Part shown: piece by piece, positions 53,257 through 64,000 of the stretch
Layout: each line of letters starts with the position of its first letter
Numbering within the stretch: the stretch's first letter is position 1
NCBI RefSeq assembly: GCF_005871165.1
Contig: NZ_SWKP01000008.1
Coordinates: forward strand, 1-64,000
Direction of reading: 5' to 3'
Origin: Maricaulis alexandrii
Lineage (GTDB): Bacteria; Pseudomonadota; Alphaproteobacteria; Caulobacterales; Maricaulaceae
DNA: 64,000 bases
Notes under the pieces: model-generated
Seen by the model: only the letters and a program-made list of their open reading frames with translations
What the model was told of the DNA's origin: nothing
The model's database searches: none
Made by a program: the position numbers and the translations under genes

Positions 53257-53637
53257 TCAGCTTTCCGGGTCCGCCGGACCATGCGGGCGAGTCAGGATAA
53301 AACAGGCCGCCGCGCCCATGCACAGGGCCTGCACGCCGATCAGACGCCAGGACAGACCGATCAGCACACTGAGCAGGAGCGCCGCCAGCATGACGAGGAC
53401 GGCACCGATCTTCACCCGTGGCCGGATTGCCCCATGATCCCGCCAGTGGCGGATCAGGGGCCCGAAGCGCGGATGGGTCACCAGCCAGTGATGCAGCCGG
53501 TCCGAGCTCCGTGCGAATCCGTAGCAAGCGAGCAGGAGGAAGGGTGTCGTCGGTACGAGCGGCAGGAGGATCCCGACCACCGCAAGTGCGAAGAAGACCC
53601 CGCCGAAGGCCAACCAGAAGAGCCGGATCAGCCCCAT
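53257..53637 (-). CDS. YbaN/DUF454 family membrane protein
   Basis: A 126-residue inner membrane protein. The PLVPTTPFLLLACYGFARSS core (about 26-45) followed by HHWLVTHPRFGPLIRHW is the DUF454 signature. Predicted helices at about 5-30 and two in the C-terminal part (77-112). Function is unknown. It is divergent from the ilv-leu leader region. Confidence 0.9.
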   Translation of the reverse strand: MGLIRLFWLAFGGVFFALAVVGILLPLVPTTPFLLLACYGFARSSDRLHHWLVTHPRFGPLIRHWRDHGAIRPRVKIGAVLVMLAALLLSVLIGLSWRLIGVQALCMGAAACFILTRPHGPADPES

Positions 53638-53744
53638 TTCACGCCCCGCAGGCAGACGGGTTCGACCCCGGGCAAAACAGGCGCTGGAATAAGCATGCTC
53701 AAACTGACCTCATGCGGTGGATTTTTGCCACGAAATTCACTTAA

Positions 53745-53759
53745 TGCAGCGCCGCTGCA
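53745..53759. promoter_or_regulatory. TGCAGCGCCGCTGCA palindrome upstream of the ilv operon
   Basis: A perfect 7+1+7 palindrome in the gap between ybaN and the ilv leader. It has the same TGC...GCA ends as the TGCACTGCA dyads but a different centre. It may be an operator of the operon. Confidence 0.35.
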
Positions 53760-53804
53760 GTAATTTTCCAAAACGGGGGTTGCAATCTTTACCATCTCCG
53801 TTCA

Positions 53805-53819
53805 CGTTGCAGCGCAATA
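53805..53819. promoter_or_regulatory. GTTGCA..GCAATA dyad just before the ilv leader peptide
   Basis: CGTTGCAGCGCAATA matches the ppa-upstream site TGTTGCACTGCAATA at 12 of 15 positions. It ends 19 bp before the leader ATG, so it could lie in or after the promoter. Confidence 0.35.
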
Positions 53820-53838
53820 GGAACACGGACACACCGTC

Positions 53839-53970
53839 ATGCCGACCAACGCGATCACCCAGCTGGCCACGCCGGCCGCCGCCCCGAAGGGCGTGCGGGT
53901 GCTCGAACTCGGCCTCCTCCTTCTCGTACTCGTACTTCTTATTACCAGCTCCATAACGGGAGTGGCGTAA
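53839..53970 (+). CDS. Branched-chain amino acid operon leader peptide
   Basis: A 43-codon open frame too short for usual gene calling. Codons 26-35 (53914-53943) read Leu-Leu-Leu-Leu-Val-Leu-Val-Leu-Leu-Ile, ten branched-chain codons in a row, several in minor forms for this GC-rich genome (CTT, GTA, ATT, then ATA at codon 39). Overall 18 of the 43 residues are Leu, Ile or Val. It lies immediately upstream of a strong terminator and ilvD. This is the design of ilv and leu attenuator peptides in enterobacteria: when charged Leu/Val/Ile tRNA is scarce the ribosome stalls on the run. A weak GGA lies nine bases upstream of the ATG. Confidence 0.88.
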   Translation: MPTNAITQLATPAAAPKGVRVLELGLLLLVLVLLITSSITGVA

Positions 53971-54024
53971 GCGCCTGCCAAAAAAGGACCGAACGTCCGG
54001 CAGACACGAAAAAGCCCCGCTCCC
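53958..54024 (+). promoter_or_regulatory. Candidate antiterminator of the ilv-leu attenuator
   Basis: GGGAGTGG (53958-53965, at the end of the leader frame) can pair with CCGCTCCC (54017-54024), which is the left arm of the terminator; the 8 pairs include one G-T. A ribosome stalled on the Leu/Val run ending at 53943 leaves 53958 free, so this pairing would form and prevent termination. A ribosome at the stop codon (53968) would cover it. An extra hairpin, CTGCC/GGCAG with GGAC/GTCC (53975-54003), sits between. Confidence 0.6.
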
Positions 54025-54043
54025 TGACAGGAGCGGGGTTTTT
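54015..54043 (+). terminator. Attenuator terminator of the ilv-leu operon
   Basis: CCCCGCTCC (54015-54023) and GGAGCGGGG (54030-54038) form a perfect 9-bp stem with a CTGACA loop, followed by TTTTTCGTTTT. It is located between the leader peptide stop and ilvD, 24 bp before the ilvD start, so default transcription ends before the structural genes. Confidence 0.93.
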
Positions 54044-54066
54044 CGTTTTGCCTCCACGGATTTCTG

Positions 54067-55800
54067 ATGACTGACACACCGAAGAAAATCTCTGACGCCA
54101 TCACACGGGGCCCGGCTCGTGCCGCTGCCCGGGCCATGCTGCGCGCGACCGGCATGGATGATGCCGATTTCGACAAGCCGATGATCGGCGTGATCAATAC
54201 CTGGACGACGGTGACGCCGTGCAACATGCACCTGGCCGATCTGGCGGCCCCGGTGCGCGACGCGGTGCGCGAGGCCGGCGGTCACCCGGTCGACTTCAAC
54301 ACGGTGGTCGTCTCGGACGGCATCTCCATGGGCTCGGAAGGCATGCGGGCCTCGCTGATCTCGCGGGAAGTCATCGCCGACTCCATCGAGCTGGCCACGC
54401 GCGGCCACTGCCTGGACGGTGTCGTCATCCTGGTCGGCTGCGACAAGACCATCCCCGCCGCCGCCATGGCGCTGGCGCGCATGGATGTGCCCGGCTGCAT
54501 CCTGTACGGCGGCACGATCATGCCCGGCCGCCTGGGCGAGAAGGATCTGTCCATCCAGGACGTGTTCGAAGCGGTCGGTGCCCATGCCGCCGGCACGCTG
54601 GACGATGCCGGCCTGAAGGATGTCGAGAAGGCCGCCTGCCCCGGCGCCGGGGCCTGTGGCGGCCAGTTCACGGCCAACACGATGGCCACCATCCTGTCCG
54701 TGATGGGCTTCTCGCCGATGGGCGTGAATGACATCCCGGCCCCACACCCGGACAAGCCGGCCGCCGCCGCGCGCTGCGGCAAGCTGGCCGTCGAACTGGC
54801 CAAGTCGGGCACCCGGCCGCGCCAGTACGTGAGCCAGGCCTCGCTGCGCAATGCGGCGATCGCGGCCTCGGCCTCGGGCGGGTCGACCAATGCCATCCTG
54901 CACCTGGCCGCCATCGCTGCGGAAGCCGGACAGCCCTTCTCCATCGACATTTTCGACGAGGTCTCCGCGACCGCGCCGGTGATCACCGATCTGAAGCCGG
55001 GCGGCCGTTTCCTGGCCCACCACATGTTCCTGGCTGGCGGCACCCGCCTGTTCACCCAGCGCCTGGTCGAGGCCGGCCTTCTGGCCGACACGCCGACCGT
55101 CACCGGCCGCTCCCTGCACGAGGAAGCCGCCGAGGCCGTCGAATCCAAGAACCAGCGCGTCATCTATTCCGTCGACAATCCGGTCAAGCCGGATGGCGGC
55201 TTCCGCATCCTCTACGGCGATCTGGCGACCGAGGGCGGTGTGCTGAAACTGTCCGGCCATTCGCGCACGGAGTTCACCGGTCCGGCCCGCGTCTTCGAAA
55301 GCGAAGAAGACGCTTTTGCCGAAATCGAGGCCAACAGGATCAAGGCCGGCGATGTCGTCATCATCCGCAATGAAGGGCCCAAGGGCGGTCCCGGCATGCG
55401 CGAAATGCTGGGCGTCACGGCTGCCCTGGTCGGTCAGGGCCTGTCCGAGGACGTCGCCCTGATCACCGATGGCCGCTTCTCCGGCGCCTCCAAGGGTTTC
55501 GTGATCGGCCATGTCAGCCCGGAAGCTGCCGCCGGCGGCGCGATCGGCCTGATCGAGGAAGGCGACATGATCAAGATCGATGTCGCCGCCCGCCGCATCG
55601 ATGTCGAGGCCGACCTGTCCGCGCGCCGCGCCGGCTGGGTCCGCCCGGATCCGAAATCCGTCGGCGGCGTGTTCGCCAAATATGCCGCCCTGGTCTCTTC
55701 GGCCGCCCGCGGCGCCGTCACCATTCCCACCGAGGCTGCGGCCCCGGCGGCTCACTCTTCATCCGATACACAAGCATCCAAGCAGGAGATCAACGCATGA
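54067..55800 (+). CDS. ilvD: Dihydroxy-acid dehydratase
   Basis: A 577-residue iron-sulfur dehydratase of the IlvD/Edd family, making the 2-oxoacid precursors of valine and isoleucine. Cluster cysteines lie in [11 protein letters not shown] (about C49), [18 protein letters not shown] (about C122) and [16 protein letters not shown] (about C195), with [15 protein letters not shown] and [16 protein letters not shown] near the C-terminus. The C-terminal 20 residues are extended. First structural gene of the operon; its stop overlaps ilvC by four bases. Confidence 0.96.
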
Positions 55801-56822
55801 CCGCGTCTGCATCCACCCCGGCCCCCAAGCGCGCTGCCTTTGAGGTCGACACCACCGCCTTCAAGTCGAAACCGATTGCGGTGATCGGCTATGGCAGCCA
55901 GGGCCGCGCCCACGCCATGAACATGAAGGACAGCGGCTGCGATGTGATCGTCGGCGTGCGTCCCGGCGGGGCCGGCGAAAAGAAGGCCCAGGCCGACGGC
56001 CTGAAGACGGCGACGCCGGAAGAGGCCACCAAGGCGGCCCATCTGATCGCCATCCTGACGCCGGACATGTCCCATGAGGAGGTCTATCGCGACATGGTCG
56101 CGCCGAACCTGGACGCCGGTGACACGGTCCTGTTCGCCCACGGCTTCTCCGTGCATTTCGGCCGCGTGAATCCGGCTGACAATATCAATGTGATCCTGGT
56201 CGCCCCGAAGGGTCCGGGTGATCTGGTCCGCCGCGAATACGAGATTGGCCGCGGCGTGCCCTGCCTGTTCGCCATCCACCAGGATGCCAGCGGCACCGCC
56301 CGCGAGATGGCGCTGAGCTATACCACCTGCATCGGCGGCGCCACGGCCGGCGTGATCGAGACGAATTTCGCCGAGGAAACCGAGACCGATCTGTTCGGCG
56401 AACAGGCCGTGCTGTGCGGCGGTGCCACCGAACTGGTCCAGGCCGGTTTCGAGACGCTGGTGGAAGCCGGTTACCAGCCGGAAGTCGCCTATTTCGAATG
56501 CCTGCACGAGCTCAAGCTGATCGTCGACCTCCTCTACGAAGGCGGCATGGCGAAGATGCATGAATTCATCTCCGAGACCGCCATCTACGGCGATCTGCGC
56601 TCCGGTCCGCGCGTCATCAATGAAGAGACGAAGGAACGCATGCGCGAGGTTCTGAAGGACATCCAGGACGGCACTTTTGCCCGCGACTGGATCACCGAGA
56701 ACCAGGCCGGCAAGCCGCAATACCAGGCCCTGCTGCGCAAGGATCTGGAACATCCCATCGAAAAGACCGGTGCCGCCCTGCGCGCCGACATGCCGTGGCT
56801 GCAGCCCGGCGCCAACCAGTAG
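55797..56822 (+). CDS. ilvC: Ketol-acid reductoisomerase, class I
   Basis: A 341-residue class I (short) KARI. The NADPH-binding loop is [19 protein letters not shown] (about 29-47), with [20 protein letters not shown] and the metal-binding segment [20 protein letters not shown] follow, then [16 protein letters not shown] non-conserved 14-residue N-terminal extension precedes the fold. It is coupled to ilvD by a 4-bp overlap and followed 13 bp later by ilvG. Confidence 0.97.
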
Positions 56823-56835
56823 ATCCGAGCGTATC

Positions 56836-58548
56836 ATGACCGCCCTGCCCGTCACCGATCCCCATACCGACGCCCCGTCGGCCACCGCCCAGCCCAGACA
56901 GACCGGGGCGCATGCGGTTGTCCGCACCCTGGAAGCCCTGGGTGTGGAGCGGGTATTCGGCTATCCGGGCGGGGCGATCATGCCCGTCTATGATGCGCTG
57001 ACCGGCTCGTCGCTGAAGCACATCCTGGTCCGCCATGAGCAGGCGGCGGCCTTTGCCGCCGATGCCCAGGCCCGCCTGACCGGCAAGGCCGGGGTCTGCA
57101 TGGCCACGTCGGGTCCCGGCGCGACCAATCTGCTGACCGGCATCGCCAATGCCTACATGGACAGTGTCCCCATGGTGATCCTGACGGGCCAGGTCCCGTC
57201 GGGCCTGATGGGCACGGACGCCTTCCAGGAAGTCGACGTGTTCGGCATGTCCATGCCGGTCGTGAAACACTCGATCATCATCCGCGATGCCGAGCGCATC
57301 CCGGAGCTGATCGCCGAAGCCTTCGACATTGCCGAATCGGGCCGCCCCGGCCCGGTCCTGATCGACATGCCGAAGGATATCCTTCAAGCCGAGGTGTACC
57401 CCACCTTACCCCCAGTACCTCGGCCCACAGCAGGGCCGTCCCGGGTCGATCAATCTGAGATCGATGCGGCGGCGGCTCTGCTGTCCCAATCCAAACGCCC
57501 GGTCCTGTATATCGGCGGCGGCGTCGCCCTGGGCGGTGCGGTTGATTCCGTCCGCGCCTTCATGGAGCGCACCGGCATTCCCACCGTTGCCACGCTCAAG
57601 GGGCTGGGCTGTCCGCACCCGGACGCCCCGGACTATCTGGGCATGCTAGGCATGCATGGCGGCCGCGCCGCCAATGTCGCCGTGGACGAGAGCGATTTGC
57701 TGATCTGCTGCGGCGCTCGGTTTGACGACCGGGCCACCGGCCGGCTGGACAGTTTCGCCAAGGGTGCCCGCATCATCCACATGGACCTGGACAGCGCCGA
57801 GATCGGCAAGTTGCGCAATGCGGACGTCGCCATGGCCGGCGATATCGGCGAGGCGCTGGACCGCATGGATCCGGGCTATCTGGACATTGCCGACTGGCGC
57901 ACCGAATGCCGCGACCGCAAGGCGCGCCATGAATTCCGCTATGACGCGCCGGGCAATGGCGTCTACGCGCCGGCCATGCTGAAGCAATTGTCCGAAGCGG
58001 CCGGTGATGACTTCATCGCCGCCTGCGATGTCGGCCAGCACCAGATGTGGGTGGCCCAGCATTGCCGCTTCGCCCGCCCGGAAGCGCATCTGACCTCTGC
58101 TGGTCTGGGCGCGATGGGCTACGGCCTGCCCGCCGGGATCGGCGCGGCCATGGAACGCCCCGACAGCAAGGTCGTCACCATCACCGGCGACGGCTCGATC
58201 ATGATGAATATCCAGGAGCTGGCCACGGCCCGCCGCTATGGCGTGCCCATCCGCATCCTGCTGCTGGACAATGCCTCGCTGGGCCTGGTGCGCCAGTGGC
58301 AGGAATATTTCTTCGACCAGAATTTCTCGGAGATTGATCTGTACGACAATCCCGACTTCGCCGAGGTGGCGCACGCTTTCGGTATCGAGGCCTTCACGGT
58401 TCACAGCCGCGAAGAAGTCCCCGGTGCCATCGAGCGCCTGCTCAATTCGCGCGGCCCGATCCTGGCCCATGTGCTGATCGATCCGCGTGAGAACGTCTGG
58501 CCGCTGGTGCCGCCAGGCGCATCCAATGCCGACATGATGGAGGACTGA
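56836..58548 (+). CDS. ilvG: Acetolactate synthase large subunit
   Basis: A 570-residue TPP-dependent AHAS catalytic subunit. RHEQAAAFAADAQARLTGK contains the catalytic Glu (about E71), and TITGDGSIMMNIQELATA with LLLDNASLGLVRQWQ forms the TPP-binding region (GDGS near 452). ATSGPGATNLLTG and GQVPSGLMGTDAFQE are typical AHAS. The small downstream subunit identifies it as part of an IlvG/IlvM-type (AHAS II-like) enzyme rather than IlvB/IlvH; the symbol is assigned on that basis. Confidence 0.93.
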   Translation: MTALPVTDPHTDAPSATAQPRQTGAHAVVRTLEALGVERVFGYPGGAIMPVYDALTGSSLKHILVRHEQAAAFAADAQARLTGKAGVCMATSGPGATNLLTGIANAYMDSVPMVILTGQVPSGLMGTDAFQEVDVFGMSMPVVKHSIIIRDAERIPELIAEAFDIAESGRPGPVLIDMPKDILQAEVYPTLPPVPRPTAGPSRVDQSEIDAAAALLSQSKRPVLYIGGGVALGGAVDSVRAFMERTGIPTVATLKGLGCPHPDAPDYLGMLGMHGGRAANVAVDESDLLICCGARFDDRATGRLDSFAKGARIIHMDLDSAEIGKLRNADVAMAGDIGEALDRMDPGYLDIADWRTECRDRKARHEFRYDAPGNGVYAPAMLKQLSEAAGDDFIAACDVGQHQMWVAQHCRFARPEAHLTSAGLGAMGYGLPAGIGAAMERPDSKVVTITGDGSIMMNIQELATARRYGVPIRILLLDNASLGLVRQWQEYFFDQNFSEIDLYDNPDFAEVAHAFGIEAFTVHSREEVPGAIERLLNSRGPILAHVLIDPRENVWPLVPPGASNADMMED

Positions 58549-58551
58549 GAC

Positions 58552-58854
58552 ATGTTCGACACCCTTTGCGTTGAACTCGCCGAGACCGAAGGCGCCCTGA
58601 TGCGGCTTATCGGCCTTGTCGAACGTCGCGGTTTCACCATCGCCACGTTCGAAAAAAGCGAAGCCCGGGACGGGTTCGCGACGATCTCCATGCGCCTGGG
58701 CGCACGGGATGGTGCGCGCAATCTGGATATTCTGTCCCGTCAGATCGGCCGGCTGATCGATGTCCGCGCCGTCTTTACCCCGGAAATTGCCGCGGCCGCC
58801 CAGGCCGCGCATGCCCCCCATCAATGGAGTCCGGCATGTCCGCCCCGAAACTGA
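58552..58854 (+). CDS. ilvM: Acetolactate synthase small subunit, IlvM-like
   Basis: A 100-residue single ACT domain (about 1-75: LCVELAETEGALMRLIGLVERRGF) of the IlvM type, much shorter than IlvH/IlvN proteins of about 160 residues. It regulates or stabilises the adjacent large subunit. The last residues (HQWSPACPPRN) are encoded by sequence overlapping the leuA start by 19 bp. It starts three bases after ilvG. Confidence 0.88.
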   Translation: MFDTLCVELAETEGALMRLIGLVERRGFTIATFEKSEARDGFATISMRLGARDGARNLDILSRQIGRLIDVRAVFTPEIAAAAQAAHAPHQWSPACPPRN

Positions 58855-60425
58855 CCCCGATCACCAGCCCGCAACCGGACCGGCTGCGGATTTTCGACAC
58901 CACGCTGCGCGATGGTGAACAGGCCCCGGGCTTCTCCATGTCGCCCGGCGAAAAGCTGGAAATGGCGCATCTGCTGGCTGCCATCCGCGTCGACACGATG
59001 GAAGCCGGCTTCGCCGCCGCCTCGCCGGGCGATGCCGAAGCCATCCGCCGGATTGCCGAGGAAGTGCGCGGTCCGACCATCTGCTCCCTGGCCCGCGCCA
59101 GTGAAAAGGATATCGACGCGGCGGCCTACGCCCTGGAACCGGCCCAGCGCAAACGCGCCCACATTTTCCTGGCCACCAGCCCGATCCACCGGGAGGCCAA
59201 GCTGAAAATGTCCCGCCACGAAGTCCTGATGACGATCGAGCGGACGCTGAAGCATGCCGCCGACCATTTCGACGAGATCGAATTCTCGGCCGAGGATGCG
59301 CTGCGCACCGAGCCGGAATTCCTGGTGGAAGCCCTGTCCTGCGCCGCCGCGCACGGCGCCGATGTGCTGAACGTGCCGGACACGGTCGGCTATTCGGAGC
59401 CGGACGAGATCTACAAGGTCTTCAAGATGCTGGTCGACGAGGTGGAACGCCCGGACCATGTGATCTTCTCGGCCCACTGCCATGACGATCTGGGCCTGGC
59501 CGTGGCCAATTCCCTGGCCGCTGTGAAAGCCGGCGCGCGCCAGGTGGAATGTGCCCTGAACGGGATCGGCGAACGGGCCGGCAATTGCTCGATGGAAGAA
59601 ATCATCATGGCGCTGAATGTCCGCGCCGACATCTTCCCGGCCGTCAGCCATGCCCAGGCGAATGCGATCTGGCCGGCCAGCCAGCGTCTGTCCCGCATCA
59701 CCGGCACGGCGATCGCGCCGAACAAGGCGATTGTCGGCCGCAATGCCTTCGCCCACGAGGCCGGCATCCACCAGCACGGCATGCTGGCCGACCGCCGCAC
59801 CTATGAAATCATGACCCCGGAAAGCGTCGGCGCGCCCGGCTCCTCCCTGGTGCTGGGCAAGCACTCGGGCAAGCATGCGCTGAGCCAGCGCCTGGGCCAG
59901 CTGGGCTATCAGCCGGGACCGGACGAGCTGTCGCGGATCTTTGCCCAGTTCAAGGAGGCTGCCGACGAGCATGGCGAGATCAATGATGCCGATCTGATCG
60001 CGATGATGGAGGGGTATTCCGCCTCCGGATCGCAATGGACGGTGCTGCGCACGGAATTGCGCACCACGGCCGGCCGCAAGCCGAAACAGTTCGCCCGCGT
60101 GGAGCTGGAACACCCGACCCGGGGCCGCATCTCCGACATTGCCTCCGGCGATGGACCGGTCGCGGCGGCCTTTGCCGCGGTGGAACGGATCACCGGATAC
60201 GAGACCGATGTGATCAGCCTGGAAACGCGCCTGCGCACCCATGAGGGCCAGCGCGAATTCGTGGCCGACATCGAAGTGGAAATCGACGGACGGCGCTTCA
60301 CCGGCCGGGCCCGCGGTCCCGACATCGTCACGGCGGCAATCGACGCCCTTCTGTTCACTCTTGATCGTGGCGAGGCCAAGGCCAAAGCCGACTCCCAGAA
60401 CACAAAAACGGCTCAGGCCGTCTGA
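58836..60425 (+). CDS. leuA: 2-isopropylmalate synthase
   Basis: A 529-residue LeuA that condenses 2-oxoisovalerate with acetyl-CoA, the committed step of leucine synthesis. The HMGL-like barrel starts at DTTLRDGEQAPG (about 24-35), FSAHCHDDLGLAVAN binds metal, NGIGERAGNCSMEE is catalytic, and the C-terminal regulatory domain (about 395-515) ends the protein. The ATG at 58836 has GGAG upstream and lies inside ilvM; 58824 is possible. Confidence 0.95.
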   Translation: MSAPKLTPITSPQPDRLRIFDTTLRDGEQAPGFSMSPGEKLEMAHLLAAIRVDTMEAGFAAASPGDAEAIRRIAEEVRGPTICSLARASEKDIDAAAYALEPAQRKRAHIFLATSPIHREAKLKMSRHEVLMTIERTLKHAADHFDEIEFSAEDALRTEPEFLVEALSCAAAHGADVLNVPDTVGYSEPDEIYKVFKMLVDEVERPDHVIFSAHCHDDLGLAVANSLAAVKAGARQVECALNGIGERAGNCSMEEIIMALNVRADIFPAVSHAQANAIWPASQRLSRITGTAIAPNKAIVGRNAFAHEAGIHQHGMLADRRTYEIMTPESVGAPGSSLVLGKHSGKHALSQRLGQLGYQPGPDELSRIFAQFKEAADEHGEINDADLIAMMEGYSASGSQWTVLRTELRTTAGRKPKQFARVELEHPTRGRISDIASGDGPVAAAFAAVERITGYETDVISLETRLRTHEGQREFVADIEVEIDGRRFTGRARGPDIVTAAIDALLFTLDRGEAKAKADSQNTKTAQAV

Positions 60426-60439
60426 CCAGGACACCTATC

Positions 60440-61396
60440 ATGGCTATTCAGGAAACCGACTTCATCTGGCGCAATGGCGAGCTGATCGACTGGCATGAGG
60501 CCCAAACCCATGTCTTGAGCCACGCGCTGCATTACGGAACCTCCGTCTTCGAGGGCATCCGCTGCTACAACACGCCCGACGGTCCGGCGATCTTCCGTCT
60601 GAGCGACCATATCCGGCGCCTGTTCGACAGCGCCCGCGTCTATCACATGCCCATCCCCTACACCCAGGAAGAGGTGGAGGCGGCCTGCCGCATGGTGATC
60701 CGCTCCAACCACCTCAAGGACGCCTATATCCGCCCGATCGCCTTCTTCGGCTATGGCGGGATCGGCGTGCTGCCGGGTAAGGATACGAGCATCGACGTCA
60801 ATGTCGCGGCCTTCCCCTGGGGCGCCTATCTGGGCGAAGAGGCCCTGGCGAACGGCGTGAATTGCTGCATCTCCAGCTGGAACCGGGCCGCCCCGAACAC
60901 GATCCCGACCGGCGCCAAGGCCGGCGGCAATTACCTGTCCTCCGTGCTGATCAGCCATGAAGCGCATTCGCGCGGCTTTGATGAAGGCATCGGACTGGAT
61001 GTGAACGGGCTGGTCTCCGAGGGCGCCGGCGAGAATATTTTCGTCGTCTCCGACGGCGTCATCCGCACGCCCCCGACCTCGGCTTCCATCCTGTCCGGCC
61101 TGACCCGCGACTCGGTGATCAAGCTGGCCGAAGCGGAAGGCTATGATGTTCGTGAACAGACCCTGTCGCGCGAAAGCCTCTATGTCGCCGACGAGATCTT
61201 CTTCACCGGCACGGCCGCCGAGATCACCCCGGTCCGCTCGGTTGATGGCCATGTCGTGCGCTGCGGTGGCCGCGGCCCGATCGCGGAGAAGATGCAGGAA
61301 CGCTTCTTCGGCCTGTTCACCGGCGAGACGCCGGACCGCTGGAACTGGCTGCAGCCGGTGACCGACAATGCGATGGAGGTCCAGCATGTCGCCTGA
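60440..61396 (+). CDS. ilvE: Branched-chain amino acid aminotransferase
   Basis: A 318-residue fold-type IV PLP enzyme performing the final transamination of Val, Leu and Ile. [16 protein letters not shown] (about 30-45) and [19 protein letters not shown] are typical; the PLP Lys lies in GAKAG. The C-terminal [20 protein letters not shown] contacts the cofactor. Its last 11 bases overlap leuC. Confidence 0.95.
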
Positions 61397-62819
61397 GGGC
61401 TCCCGTCCCGCACCGCGATCCCTGTTCGAGAAGCTGTGGGACCGGCATCTGGTGAAGGCCGAGACGCCGGAAACCCCGGCCATGCTCTATATCGACCTTC
61501 ATCTCGTGCATGAGGTGACCTCACCGCAGGCCTTCTCCGTGCTGGCCGAACGCGGGCTGAAGGTCCGTCGGCCGGACCGGACGCTGGCGACGATCGACCA
61601 TTCCACACCGACCCTGGATTTCGCGCCGGGCGAGACCCCGCCCTATGCGACCGAGGCGGCGCGCCACCAGGTGGAAACCCTGCAGGCCAATACCAAGGCC
61701 CAGGGCATCACCCTGCATGGCTGGGACAGCCCGCATCGCGGCGTGGTCCATGTCATCGGGCCGGAGCTGGGCGCGACCCAGCCGGGCATGACGATTGTCT
61801 GTGGTGACAGCCACACCGCCACGCATGGGGCCTTCGGCGCCCTGGCTTTCGGCATCGGCACCACCGAGGTCGGCCATGTCCTGGCGACGCAATGCCTGCT
61901 GCAGCGCAAGCCGAAATCCATGCGCATCAATGTCGAGGGCGAGACCGCGCCGGGCATCAGTGCCAAGGACATCATCCTGGCCATCATTGCCGAGATCGGC
62001 GTCGATGGCGGGACGGGCTGCGTGATCGAATATGCCGGTTCGGCGATCAAGGCACTGGACATGGATGGCCGGATGACGGTCTGCAACATGTCGATCGAGG
62101 CCGGGGCCCGCGCCGGCATGATTGCCGCCGACGAGACCACGTTCGCCTGGCTGAAAGGCCGCGAGCGCGTGCCGTCCGGCGCCGATTGGGACAAGGCCGT
62201 CGAAGCCTGGTCGAACTATCGCAGTGATCCGGGTGCGCATTTCGACAAGGAAGTGACGATCGACGCCAGCGCAATCCAGCCCATGGTGACCTGGGGCACG
62301 GCCCCGGATACCGGGATTGCCGTGGACGCGCCGGTCCCGGACGCTCGCTCCGCCTCCCACGCCAAGGCGCTCAATTACATGAAGTTCGAAGCCGGCATGC
62401 CGGTCTCGGGCCAAAAGGTGGACCAGGTCTTCATCGGCTCCTGCACCAATTCGCGGATCACCGATCTGCGGGCCGCCGCGGCGATCATGTCCGGCCGCCA
62501 GGTCGCACCGGGTGTGCGCGCCCTTGTCGTACCGGGCTCCGTCGCCGTGCGGGCCCAGGCGGAAGCGGAAGGCCTGGACCGGATCTTCATCGAGGCCGGG
62601 GCCGAATGGCGCCAGCCGGGCTGTTCCATGTGCATCGCCATGAATGGTGACAAGGGCGAGCCGGGCCAGCTGATCGTGTCGACCTCGAACCGCAATTTCG
62701 AAGGCCGCCAGGGTCCCGGGGCCCGCACCGTGCTGGCCTCACCGGCCACAGCCGCCGCGGCCGCGATTGCCGGCCATGTCATCAATCCGGCCACGCTGAT
62801 GGAGCCGGCCCATGCCTGA
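61386..62819 (+). CDS. leuC: 3-isopropylmalate dehydratase large subunit
   Basis: A 477-residue aconitase-family subunit. [17 protein letters not shown] (Cys about 355) and GCSMCIAMN (two cysteines about 415-418) ligate the 4Fe-4S cluster; [25 protein letters not shown] and [12 protein letters not shown] are conserved. With LeuD it isomerises isopropylmalate. The start has GGAGG upstream and overlaps the end of ilvE. Confidence 0.96.
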
Positions 62820-63381
62820 GCAATTCAACACGCTGACCTCGCGCACTTTCGTGATCGACCAGGAAGACATTGATACCGACCAGATCATCCCGGCCCGCTT
62901 CCTGACCACCACGACGCGGGATGGTCTGGGCAAGCTGGCCTTCCATGACTGGCGCTATGACAGTAACGGCAAGCCGCTGGAAAATGTCTCGCTCAATTCG
63001 CTGGATACCGGCACGCATCAGGTCCTGGTCGCCGGCCGGAATTTCGGCTGCGGCTCCTCGCGCGAACATGCGCCCTGGGCGCTGTATGATTTCGGCTTCC
63101 GCGCCGTCATCGCCTCGGAGATTGCCGACATCTTCCGGTCCAATTCGGCCAAGAACGGGCTGGTCCCGATCGTCGCCCCGCCGGAAGCCCATGATTGGCT
63201 CATGGCGCATCCGGATGTGGAGATCGAGATCGACCTGGCCGATCAGAGGGTTGATCTGGGCAATGGTCCGAGTTTCCATTTCGAGATCGAACCCTTTGCC
63301 AAGCACTGCCTGATGGAGGGTACGGACCCGCTGGGCTATCTGACCGCCCAGTCCGACGCCATCACCGCCTACGAGACGTAA
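62812..63381 (+). CDS. leuD: 3-isopropylmalate dehydratase small subunit
   Basis: A 189-residue swivel-domain subunit. [11 protein letters not shown] (about 23-33), [19 protein letters not shown] (about 74-92) and [13 protein letters not shown] are the substrate-gripping motifs. It overlaps leuC by eight bases and is followed five bases later by leuB. Confidence 0.96.
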
Positions 63382-63386
63382 AACGC

Positions 63387-64000
63387 ATGACCTATAAAAT
63401 CACGCTCCTGCCCGGTGACGGGATCGGCCCGGAAATCACCCAGGTGGCGCGCGCCGTCCTGGAACACACGGCCTCCCTGTCCGGCTTCTCCGTCAAATTC
63501 ACCGAATGCGCCTTCGGTGGCGCCTCGATCGACCAGTATGGCGAGCCGCTGACCGACAAGACGCTGAAAGCCTGCCAGTCCGCCGATGCCGTCTTCCTCG
63601 GTGCGGTGGGCGGTCCGAAATGGGATCATGCGCCGGAGCGTCCGGAAATGGGCTTGCTGGCCCTGCGCAAGGCGCTCGGCGTCTATGCCAATCTGCGCCC
63701 GGCTGCCGTCCACCCGGCCCTGGCCGACAAGTCGCCGCTGCGCCCGGACCTGGTCGCCGGCACGGATGTGTTGATCGTGCGGGAGCTGACCGGCGGCATC
63801 TATTTCGGTGAGCGGGAGCGCTCCGAGGACAAGGCGTCCGACAAATGCACCTACAGCCGCGCCGAGATCGAGCGTGTCGCCCGCGTCGCCTTCGAACAGG
63901 CCCGCCTGCGCCGCGGCAAGCTGACCTCGGTGGACAAGGCGAATGTGCTGGAAACCTCCAAGCTCTGGCGTGCCGTGGTGACCGAGATGGGCCAGCGCGA
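63387..64000 (+). CDS. leuB: 3-isopropylmalate dehydrogenase (partial, cut by window end)
   Basis: The first 204 residues of LeuB, which oxidises 3-isopropylmalate with NAD. ITLLPGDGIGPEIT (about 5-18), LGAVGGPKWD (71-80), LRKALGVYANLRP and VRELTGGIYFGER with SVDKANVLETSKLWR are hallmarks of the isocitrate/isopropylmalate dehydrogenase family. Frame is open to the last base. It ends the recognisable ilv-leu operon in this window. Confidence 0.96.
   Translation, partial: MTYKITLLPGDGIGPEITQVARAVLEHTASLSGFSVKFTECAFGGASIDQYGEPLTDKTLKACQSADAVFLGAVGGPKWDHAPERPEMGLLALRKALGVYANLRPAAVHPALADKSPLRPDLVAGTDVLIVRELTGGIYFGERERSEDKASDKCTYSRAEIERVARVAFEQARLRRGKLTSVDKANVLETSKLWRAVVTEMGQR

Follow-up and report, generated by a model that had tools for sequence, protein, structure and literature searches.

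The window analyzed here, a 64-kb stretch of DNA from Maricaulis alexandrii, ends in nine genes of branched-chain amino acid synthesis that lie on one strand in the order ilvD-ilvC-ilvG-ilvM-leuA-ilvE-leuC-leuD-leuB, preceded by a short leader (Table 1). The nine ilv and leu genes of the preliminary description are borne out by family matches, with the ninth, leuB, running beyond the window; the part of leuB within the window scores below the TIGR00169 cut-off. Neighboring genes from ilvD to leuB overlap or sit a few bases apart and the next long ORF is on the opposite strand, a spacing that suggests a single transcript over all nine. The acetolactate synthase of the operon is of the E. coli ilvG type, and ilvG is the only gene of the genome that matches TIGR00118 above the cut-off (the second match reaches 334 bits, the cut-off being 538). 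Because the genome also contains a single IlvD match at 1e-100 and only one full-length LeuA match, a switch in front of this operon probably sets nearly all of the branched-chain amino acid synthesis of the cell. The ilvM-like gene is far more variable than its neighbors (31-67% identity where detected) and is not detected by tblastn in the operons of several relatives.

Table 1. Leader elements and operon genes, with positions in the window
Feature	Position	Strand	Basis
Divergent upstream gene, DUF454-like (below family cut-off)	53257-53637	-	
Promoter-like pair: TTGCAA (53780-53785), 17 bases, CACGTT (53803-53808)	53780-53808	+	similarity among genus members
Inverted repeat TTGC-AGC-GCAA at presumed start site	53807-53817	.	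sequence
Leader peptide ORF, 43 codons, MPTNAITQLATPAAAPKGVRVLELGLLLLVLVLLITSSITGVA	53839-53970	+	sequence, translation, counterparts in relatives
Control codons (codons 26-35), LLLLVLVLLI	53914-53943	+	sequence, translation
Hairpin 1:2, weak (53948-53952 with 53959-53963; -6.3 kcal/mol)	53948-53963	+	
Arm 2, antiterminator left arm, GGGAGTGG	53958-53965	+	sequence, swap test, alignment, folding
TAA stop of leader ORF	53968-53970	+	
Inner antiterminator helix, 5' arm CTGCC (partner 53999-54003)	53975-53979	+	folding, swap test
Inner antiterminator helix, 3' arm GGCAG	53999-54003	+	folding, swap test
Arm 3: terminator left arm CCCCGCTCC; antiterminator right arm CCGCTCCC	54015-54023; 54017-54024	+	
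Arm 4 GGAGCGGGG; T tract TTTTT; intrinsic terminator	54030-54038; 54039-54043	+	sequence, covariation
ilvD, dihydroxy-acid dehydratase	54067-55800	+	NCBIfam TIGR00110 over cut-off
ilvC, ketol-acid reductoisomerase	55797-56822	+	TIGR00465 over cut-off
ilvG, acetolactate synthase II-type large subunit (predicted start codon)	56836-58548	+	PRK08978 over cut-off
ilvM-like small subunit	58552-58854	+	weak acetolactate synthase small-subunit matches, below cut-off
leuA, 2-isopropylmalate synthase	58824-60425	+	PRK00915 (NF002086) over cut-off
ilvE, branched-chain transaminase	60440-61396	+	TIGR01122 over cut-off
leuC (predicted start codon)	61386-62819	+	TIGR00170 over cut-off
leuD	62812-63381	+	TIGR00171 over cut-off
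leuB, truncated by the window (the gene reaches 64445 on the contig)	63387-64000	+	TIGR00169

The leader ORF and the ten consecutive branched-chain codons within it were exact when the sequence and translation were read again: codons 26-35 are CTC CTC CTT CTC GTA CTC GTA CTT CTT ATT, and with seven of them encoding Leu, as opposed to two for Val and one for Ile, the response is expected to be mainly to leucine. Equally exact was the 9-bp terminator with its TTTTT tract, the stem of which can be extended to 14 pairs through A-T pairs and which leaves only 23 bases between the T tract and the ilvD start. The 8-bp antiterminator pairing of arm 2 with arm 3, consisting of seven Watson-Crick pairs and one G-U, stands as described earlier, with arm 3 common to terminator and antiterminator; overlooked at the time was an inner helix, between arm 2 and arm 3, that appears in most rows upon folding the antiterminator segment alone. 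The 103 bases from 53946 to 54048 fold with a z score of -5.3, none of 200 shuffles being equally stable. On its own, the antiterminator segment is moderately better than shuffles in the window (z of -2.8) and is at the chance level in some relatives (-1.1 in L022, -1.0 in L023 and -0.2 in L127). Hairpin 1:2 is probably not a strong protector. Run and terminator jointly (at least 8 Leu/Val/Ile codons in 10, then a terminator) were found in 3 of 1272 stretches of 465 bases covering both strands of the window, and all three are this locus; chance co-occurrence of an ORF and a terminator is rejected on the strength of this control and of the relatives.

Upstream of the leader, the promoter-like pair would place the transcription start near 53815; a consensus promoter scan of 53600-54200 yielded no sigma-70-type site. 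The inverted repeat at the presumed start, which is exact as TTGC-N3-GCAA in 10 of the 18 closely related loci (window included), could be a regulator site.

Conservation of the run and of the paired arms

The preliminary description had proposed looking for the run and both hairpins among relatives. An IlvD search at 1e-100 identified 44 of 61 genomes (own genome included), and the region before ilvD was examined in the best 30 (the window and 29 relatives). A Leu/Val/Ile leader frame (at least 6 of 10) together with the terminator precedes ilvD in 27 of the 29 relatives, the frame being absent in L030 and L031, and, as detailed below, both helices pair and covary. Among four of the 14 remaining loci (L126-L129), the leader is clear in one, weak in one and absent in two. 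The genomes of the latter two (G032 and G031) carry the element before ilvC instead.

The choice of codons within the run departs strongly from that of the operon. In the nine genes, Leu is encoded by CTG in 84.5% of the cases, Val by GTA in 1.3% and Ile by ATT in 12.1%; the run contains no CTG among its seven Leu codons, all of which are CTC or CTT, uses GTA for both Val codons and ATT for Ile. At the operon's own usage, the probability of seven Leu codons all being CTC or CTT is 2.9e-7 and that of two GTA codons is 1.7e-4. The same preference is seen in 43 leaders pooled, where CTT, CTC and CTG account for 48%, 37% and 8% of 169 Leu codons, GTA for 53% of 88 Val codons and ATT for 80% of 61 Ile codons, compared with 64% CTG, 3% GTA and 19% ATT in ilvD of the respective genomes. 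One tRNA decodes both CTC and CTT. Leaders with a strong codon bias are known, the bias being explained for E. coli by selective tRNA charging in the relevant part of PMC1183508, according to which the Leu codon favored in E. coli leaders is CUA; thus, the codons themselves do not carry over to the leader in the window, and the codon choice here allows the theory of selective tRNA charging to be tested outside E. coli.

For a wide alignment, 37 rows (window included) were picked from 66 ilvD-upstream regions for a visible leader and terminator; left out were six near copies retained in another alignment (L003, L004, L009, L011, L014 and L019), four regions in which a leader-like frame and a hairpin are visible and the terminator was poorly found automatically (L044, L045, L046 and L053), and 19 regions with no such leader visible. 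In the plain MAFFT alignment of these selected rows, 85.7% of the 2:3 pairs are formed, compared with 39-60% for slid versions, and 87.3% of the 3:4 pairs, compared with 38-55%. The covariation scores of 2:3 and of 3:4 each exceed those of all 500 shuffles, a result that relatedness of the rows can inflate; 2:3 pairs changed on both sides number three, which is reached by 150 of 500 shuffles and exceeded by three slid versions. Within the 18 close rows (window included), the antiterminator and inner helix are paired in 99.1% of the cells as against 32-54% for slid versions; these helices hardly vary, and the covariation score is reached by 17 of 500 shuffles.

We further applied an alignment-free swap test in which the run-to-terminator region of each genome was confronted with its own arm 3 and with those of other genomes. 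In the swap tests, as in the 43-row folding test, arm 2 was defined as the segment that pairs best with arm 3. On this definition, the native arm 2 and arm 3 pair better than exchanged partners (z of -5.0, 29 distinct arms, 0 of 20000 permutations). For the inner helix, the z scores are -9.2 for the 37 rows and -8.0 for 26 thinned rows, again with 0 of 20000 permutations each. The sequence of this helix changes from CTGCC:GGCAG in the genus to TGGAG:CTCCA, TAGGT:ACCTA or TTAGG:CCTAA elsewhere, with the pairing kept. In L024, L028 and L126, the stop codon of the leader lies within the 5' arm of the inner helix.

Ribosome position and the proposed switch

The effect of the ribosome on the competing helices was modeled under the assumption that its downstream edge on the RNA lies 13 bases beyond the first nucleotide of the A-site codon. 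With the A site at codons 20-36, the 2:3 pairing forms before arm 4 exists, with a mean pair probability of 0.92-0.93; at codon 37 the value is down to 0.67, and from codon 38 through the stop it is 0.00, so that, the last control codon being codon 35, the antiterminator is lost two to three codons past the run. The geometry proposed earlier, in which stalling on the run frees arm 2 and a ribosome at the stop masks it, is reproduced by this folding model. In 40 of 43 rows, the antiterminator forms when the ribosome is at the first of the control codons tested and is lost when it is at the stop (the exceptions being L033, L035 and L040); with the ribosome at the last control codon, the antiterminator forms in only 33 of the 43. 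Two proven E. coli attenuators used as positive controls behave in a similar way: in ilvL, 2:3 drops from 0.75 to 0.02 at the last Ile codons, and in leuL from 0.98 to 0.00 within three codons past the last Leu of the run.

With arm 4 in place, the terminator has a pair probability of 1.00 at every ribosome position at equilibrium; the modeled switch must therefore be kinetic, with the outcome presumably decided by the order in which events occur, as the textbook model has it. If no ribosome is present, the antiterminator forms in the model in a total of 34 of the 43 rows, the window among them. In the trp system, the protector hairpin 1:2 brings about termination when the leader is not translated. 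Given the two-helix antiterminator and the apparent near absence of a protector hairpin, the present leader, unlike that of trp, is predicted to switch the operon on when its translation is lost.

Taken together, these features point to a ribosome-mediated transcription attenuator that adjusts the transcription of the nine-gene ilv-leu operon to the availability of the charged tRNAs for Leu, Val and Ile, a reading to which we assign a probability of roughly 0.93. RNA polymerase would transcribe the leader from the putative promoter at 53780-53808. With the tRNAs charged, the ribosome would pass the control codons, reach the stop and cover arm 2, leaving arm 3 to pair with arm 4, and transcription would end at about 54043. 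When the tRNAs are scarce, the ribosome would stall on the run and leave arm 2 free to pair with arm 3 as soon as the latter is made, the inner helix would stabilize this antiterminator, and the polymerase would read through into ilvD; in the model, this depends on the antiterminator forming first and persisting. Speaking against this reading, the peptide is not conserved outside the run, and a codon-position test of the leader ORF gave a weak signal, with third positions varying only slightly more than the other two (0.311 versus 0.248 and 0.265).

Alternatively, the terminator might end an upstream or spurious transcript, with the Leu/Val/Ile frame being a chance ORF and the ilvD promoter lying downstream. 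That the consensus scan found no promoter upstream is compatible with such an arrangement, but the upstream gene is divergent, so that no upstream plus-strand gene needs ending, and the space between the T tract and ilvD is very short. Moreover, the run, arm 2, arms 3 and 4 and the codon choice recur together in relatives, and this locus alone fits within the window; we consider this possibility very unlikely. Another possibility is that the leader produces a small membrane peptide with a function of its own, the RNA fold being secondary; the hydrophobic character of the run and the retention of the frame in relatives would fit this. Against it stand the wide variation of the N-terminal part and of the length among relatives, the absence of the last codons of other genus members from the peptides of the window, L003 and L004, and the covariation of both arms of the RNA helices. 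We consider a functional peptide even less probable than a chance ORF.

Attenuation without a ribosome, through a ligand-binding RNA (riboswitch) or a T-box, is conceivable insofar as such elements, T-boxes in particular, regulate branched-chain operons elsewhere among bacteria. A passage of PMC8632094 mentions weak riboswitch candidates located before ilvD and ilvB. In the leader described here, the inner part changes its sequence between genera with the pairing kept and the control codons stay, unlike what would be expected of a ligand pocket. No Rfam family, with leader families, T-box and riboswitches included, matches anywhere in the 64-kb window at the gathering score, which also disposes of a known Rfam leader family; the best sub-threshold match is RF00506, Thr_leader (25.8 bits, the cut-off being 55), that is, a leader which we take to be of the ribosome-mediated type. 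A riboswitch or T-box is accordingly as improbable in our judgment as the membrane peptide, and annotators gain an RNA element that lacks an Rfam family.

Distribution of the element

A search model built from the 18 close rows was run against 299 genomes of the order. At E 0.01 it matches 168 of them, with many of the matches covering the terminator part only, and at 1e-6 it matches 52 (own genome included). Among the best 30 order-level loci, 19 are located before ilvD (window included), 10 before ilvC and one before neither. In other genera of the family (L145, L146, L148, L150, L151 and L154-L158), the element precedes ilvC-ilvG, which indicates that the leader follows the front of the operon. 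In the order search at 1e-6, the match in L161 (genome G277, from another family) precedes no gene of the branched-chain pathway: on the minus strand of L161:1-1600, a short Met/Ile/Thr-rich frame (TTMIIMTPTSIAGRTRAT) lies before a terminator and further ORFs, possibly an attenuator for another pathway.

At the class level, 6 of 385 genomes were matched at E 1e-5, two of which are real, namely the window and L162, where the leader precedes ilvD; in the other four, tblastn detected no gene of the branched-chain pathway. One of the class-level matches, in L163, falls at about 1425-1565 of the reverse complement on a small hydrophobic ORF whose end is rich in His (MKNLTSKLGNPKFLVAAGIIAIAIAVFSIVIFGTGGGIDSGHGHTH); branched-chain genes are absent from its vicinity, and the ORF probably represents a small membrane protein.

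The gene order behind the leader is widely shared: of 20 longer loci including the window, 17 have ilvD followed by ilvC, ilvG, leuA, leuC, leuD and leuB, two have ilvD only and one is without ilvC and ilvG, with ilvM and ilvE undetected in several of the 20. The same order is present in named records of Brevundimonas, Parvularcula, Chiayiivirga and Lysobacter. Among 80 named ilvD loci, the leader scan covered the region before ilvD in 32, and an independent scan for the combination of run, terminator and antiterminator was run over all 80 (2.96 million bases, both strands counted). It returned 15 distinct places, of which 13 are directly before pathway genes, namely ilvD (11), ilvC (Alkalicaulis) and leuA (a Rhodanobacter MAG), and two are elsewhere; the scan is strict, given that Brevundimonas leaders visible by eye are not among the 15. 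The two Acidobacteria matches (L080 and L081) look weak. In contigs labeled Verrucomicrobia (L074 and L108), a Leu/Val/Ile run and a terminator lie just before ilvD, which suggests similar attenuators outside Pseudomonadota, with the caveat that these bins may be mislabeled.

Relation to known attenuators

Vitreschak et al. reportedly described in 2004 an alpha-proteobacterial leader element before ilvB/ilvIH. A branched-chain leader peptide before ilvB of alpha-proteobacteria is mentioned, with reference to Vitreschak et al. 2004, in a passage of PMC1273637, and a cis element of ilvIH is listed for Sinorhizobium in part of PMC2573895; the element described here differs, as far as these passages go, in being located before ilvD or, in other genera, before ilvC. 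For Caulobacter crescentus, the section of a ribosome profiling study that deals with ilvBN (ilvIH) reports an attenuator leader with tandem branched-chain codons and a rho-independent terminator, citing Tarleton et al. 1994 (PMC4117421). This system is similar to that in the window in belonging to an alphaproteobacterium, presumably of the same order, and in having a leader before acetolactate synthase genes and a terminator. It is set apart, by its description in that section, by tandem Ile and Val codons, whereas those in the window are mostly Leu, and by the control of ilvBN, whereas the leader in the window precedes an operon of nine genes that starts with ilvD and encodes an enzyme of the acetolactate synthase II type.

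The E. coli operons ilvGMEDA (ilvL) and leuABCD (leuL) resemble the present one in their leader codons, in the competition of 2:3 with 3:4 and in the switch near the end of the run; they are separate operons with separate leaders, whereas a single leader serves here. The enterobacterial precedent invoked in the preliminary description is not the nearest one, because the mechanism has been reported for Caulobacter ilvBN and for alpha-proteobacterial ilvB/ilvIH. For the same reason, the kind of attenuator is already known and the window provides a further instance. The open literature, to which our search was largely confined, most subscription papers being outside it, yielded no description of an attenuator for this operon in this group. 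Possibly new are the location of the leader ahead of an operon for the whole pathway in this family, the antiterminator made of two parts and the prediction that the operon is on by default.

A broader reading, which we hold to be somewhat less likely than not, is that one attenuator, through few tRNA species (those for CTC/CTT and GTA), governs the whole valine-leucine pathway and the shared isoleucine steps, is on by default in the absence of translation, and has stayed at the front of the operon through gene reordering. The reordering part of this reading refers to the ilvD-, ilvC- and leuA-first forms, in relatives of Caulobacter, relatives of Lysobacter and perhaps other phyla. Leaders with different operon orders and stop positions form a natural series that can be used to test what an attenuator needs.

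With regard to the stop position, the stop codon lies 10 bases past the start of arm 2 in the window compared to 31 in both E. coli leaders. Compared with other genus members, the leaders of the window, L003 and L004 are shorter by about six codons at their end, apparently owing to a TAA in place of the TAC of L006: the L006 peptide extends past arm 2 (ending in TGVAYAPAG), and the other three end at the TAA within GTGGCGTAA. In the folding model, arm 2 would remain masked even with the ribosome at the earlier stop.
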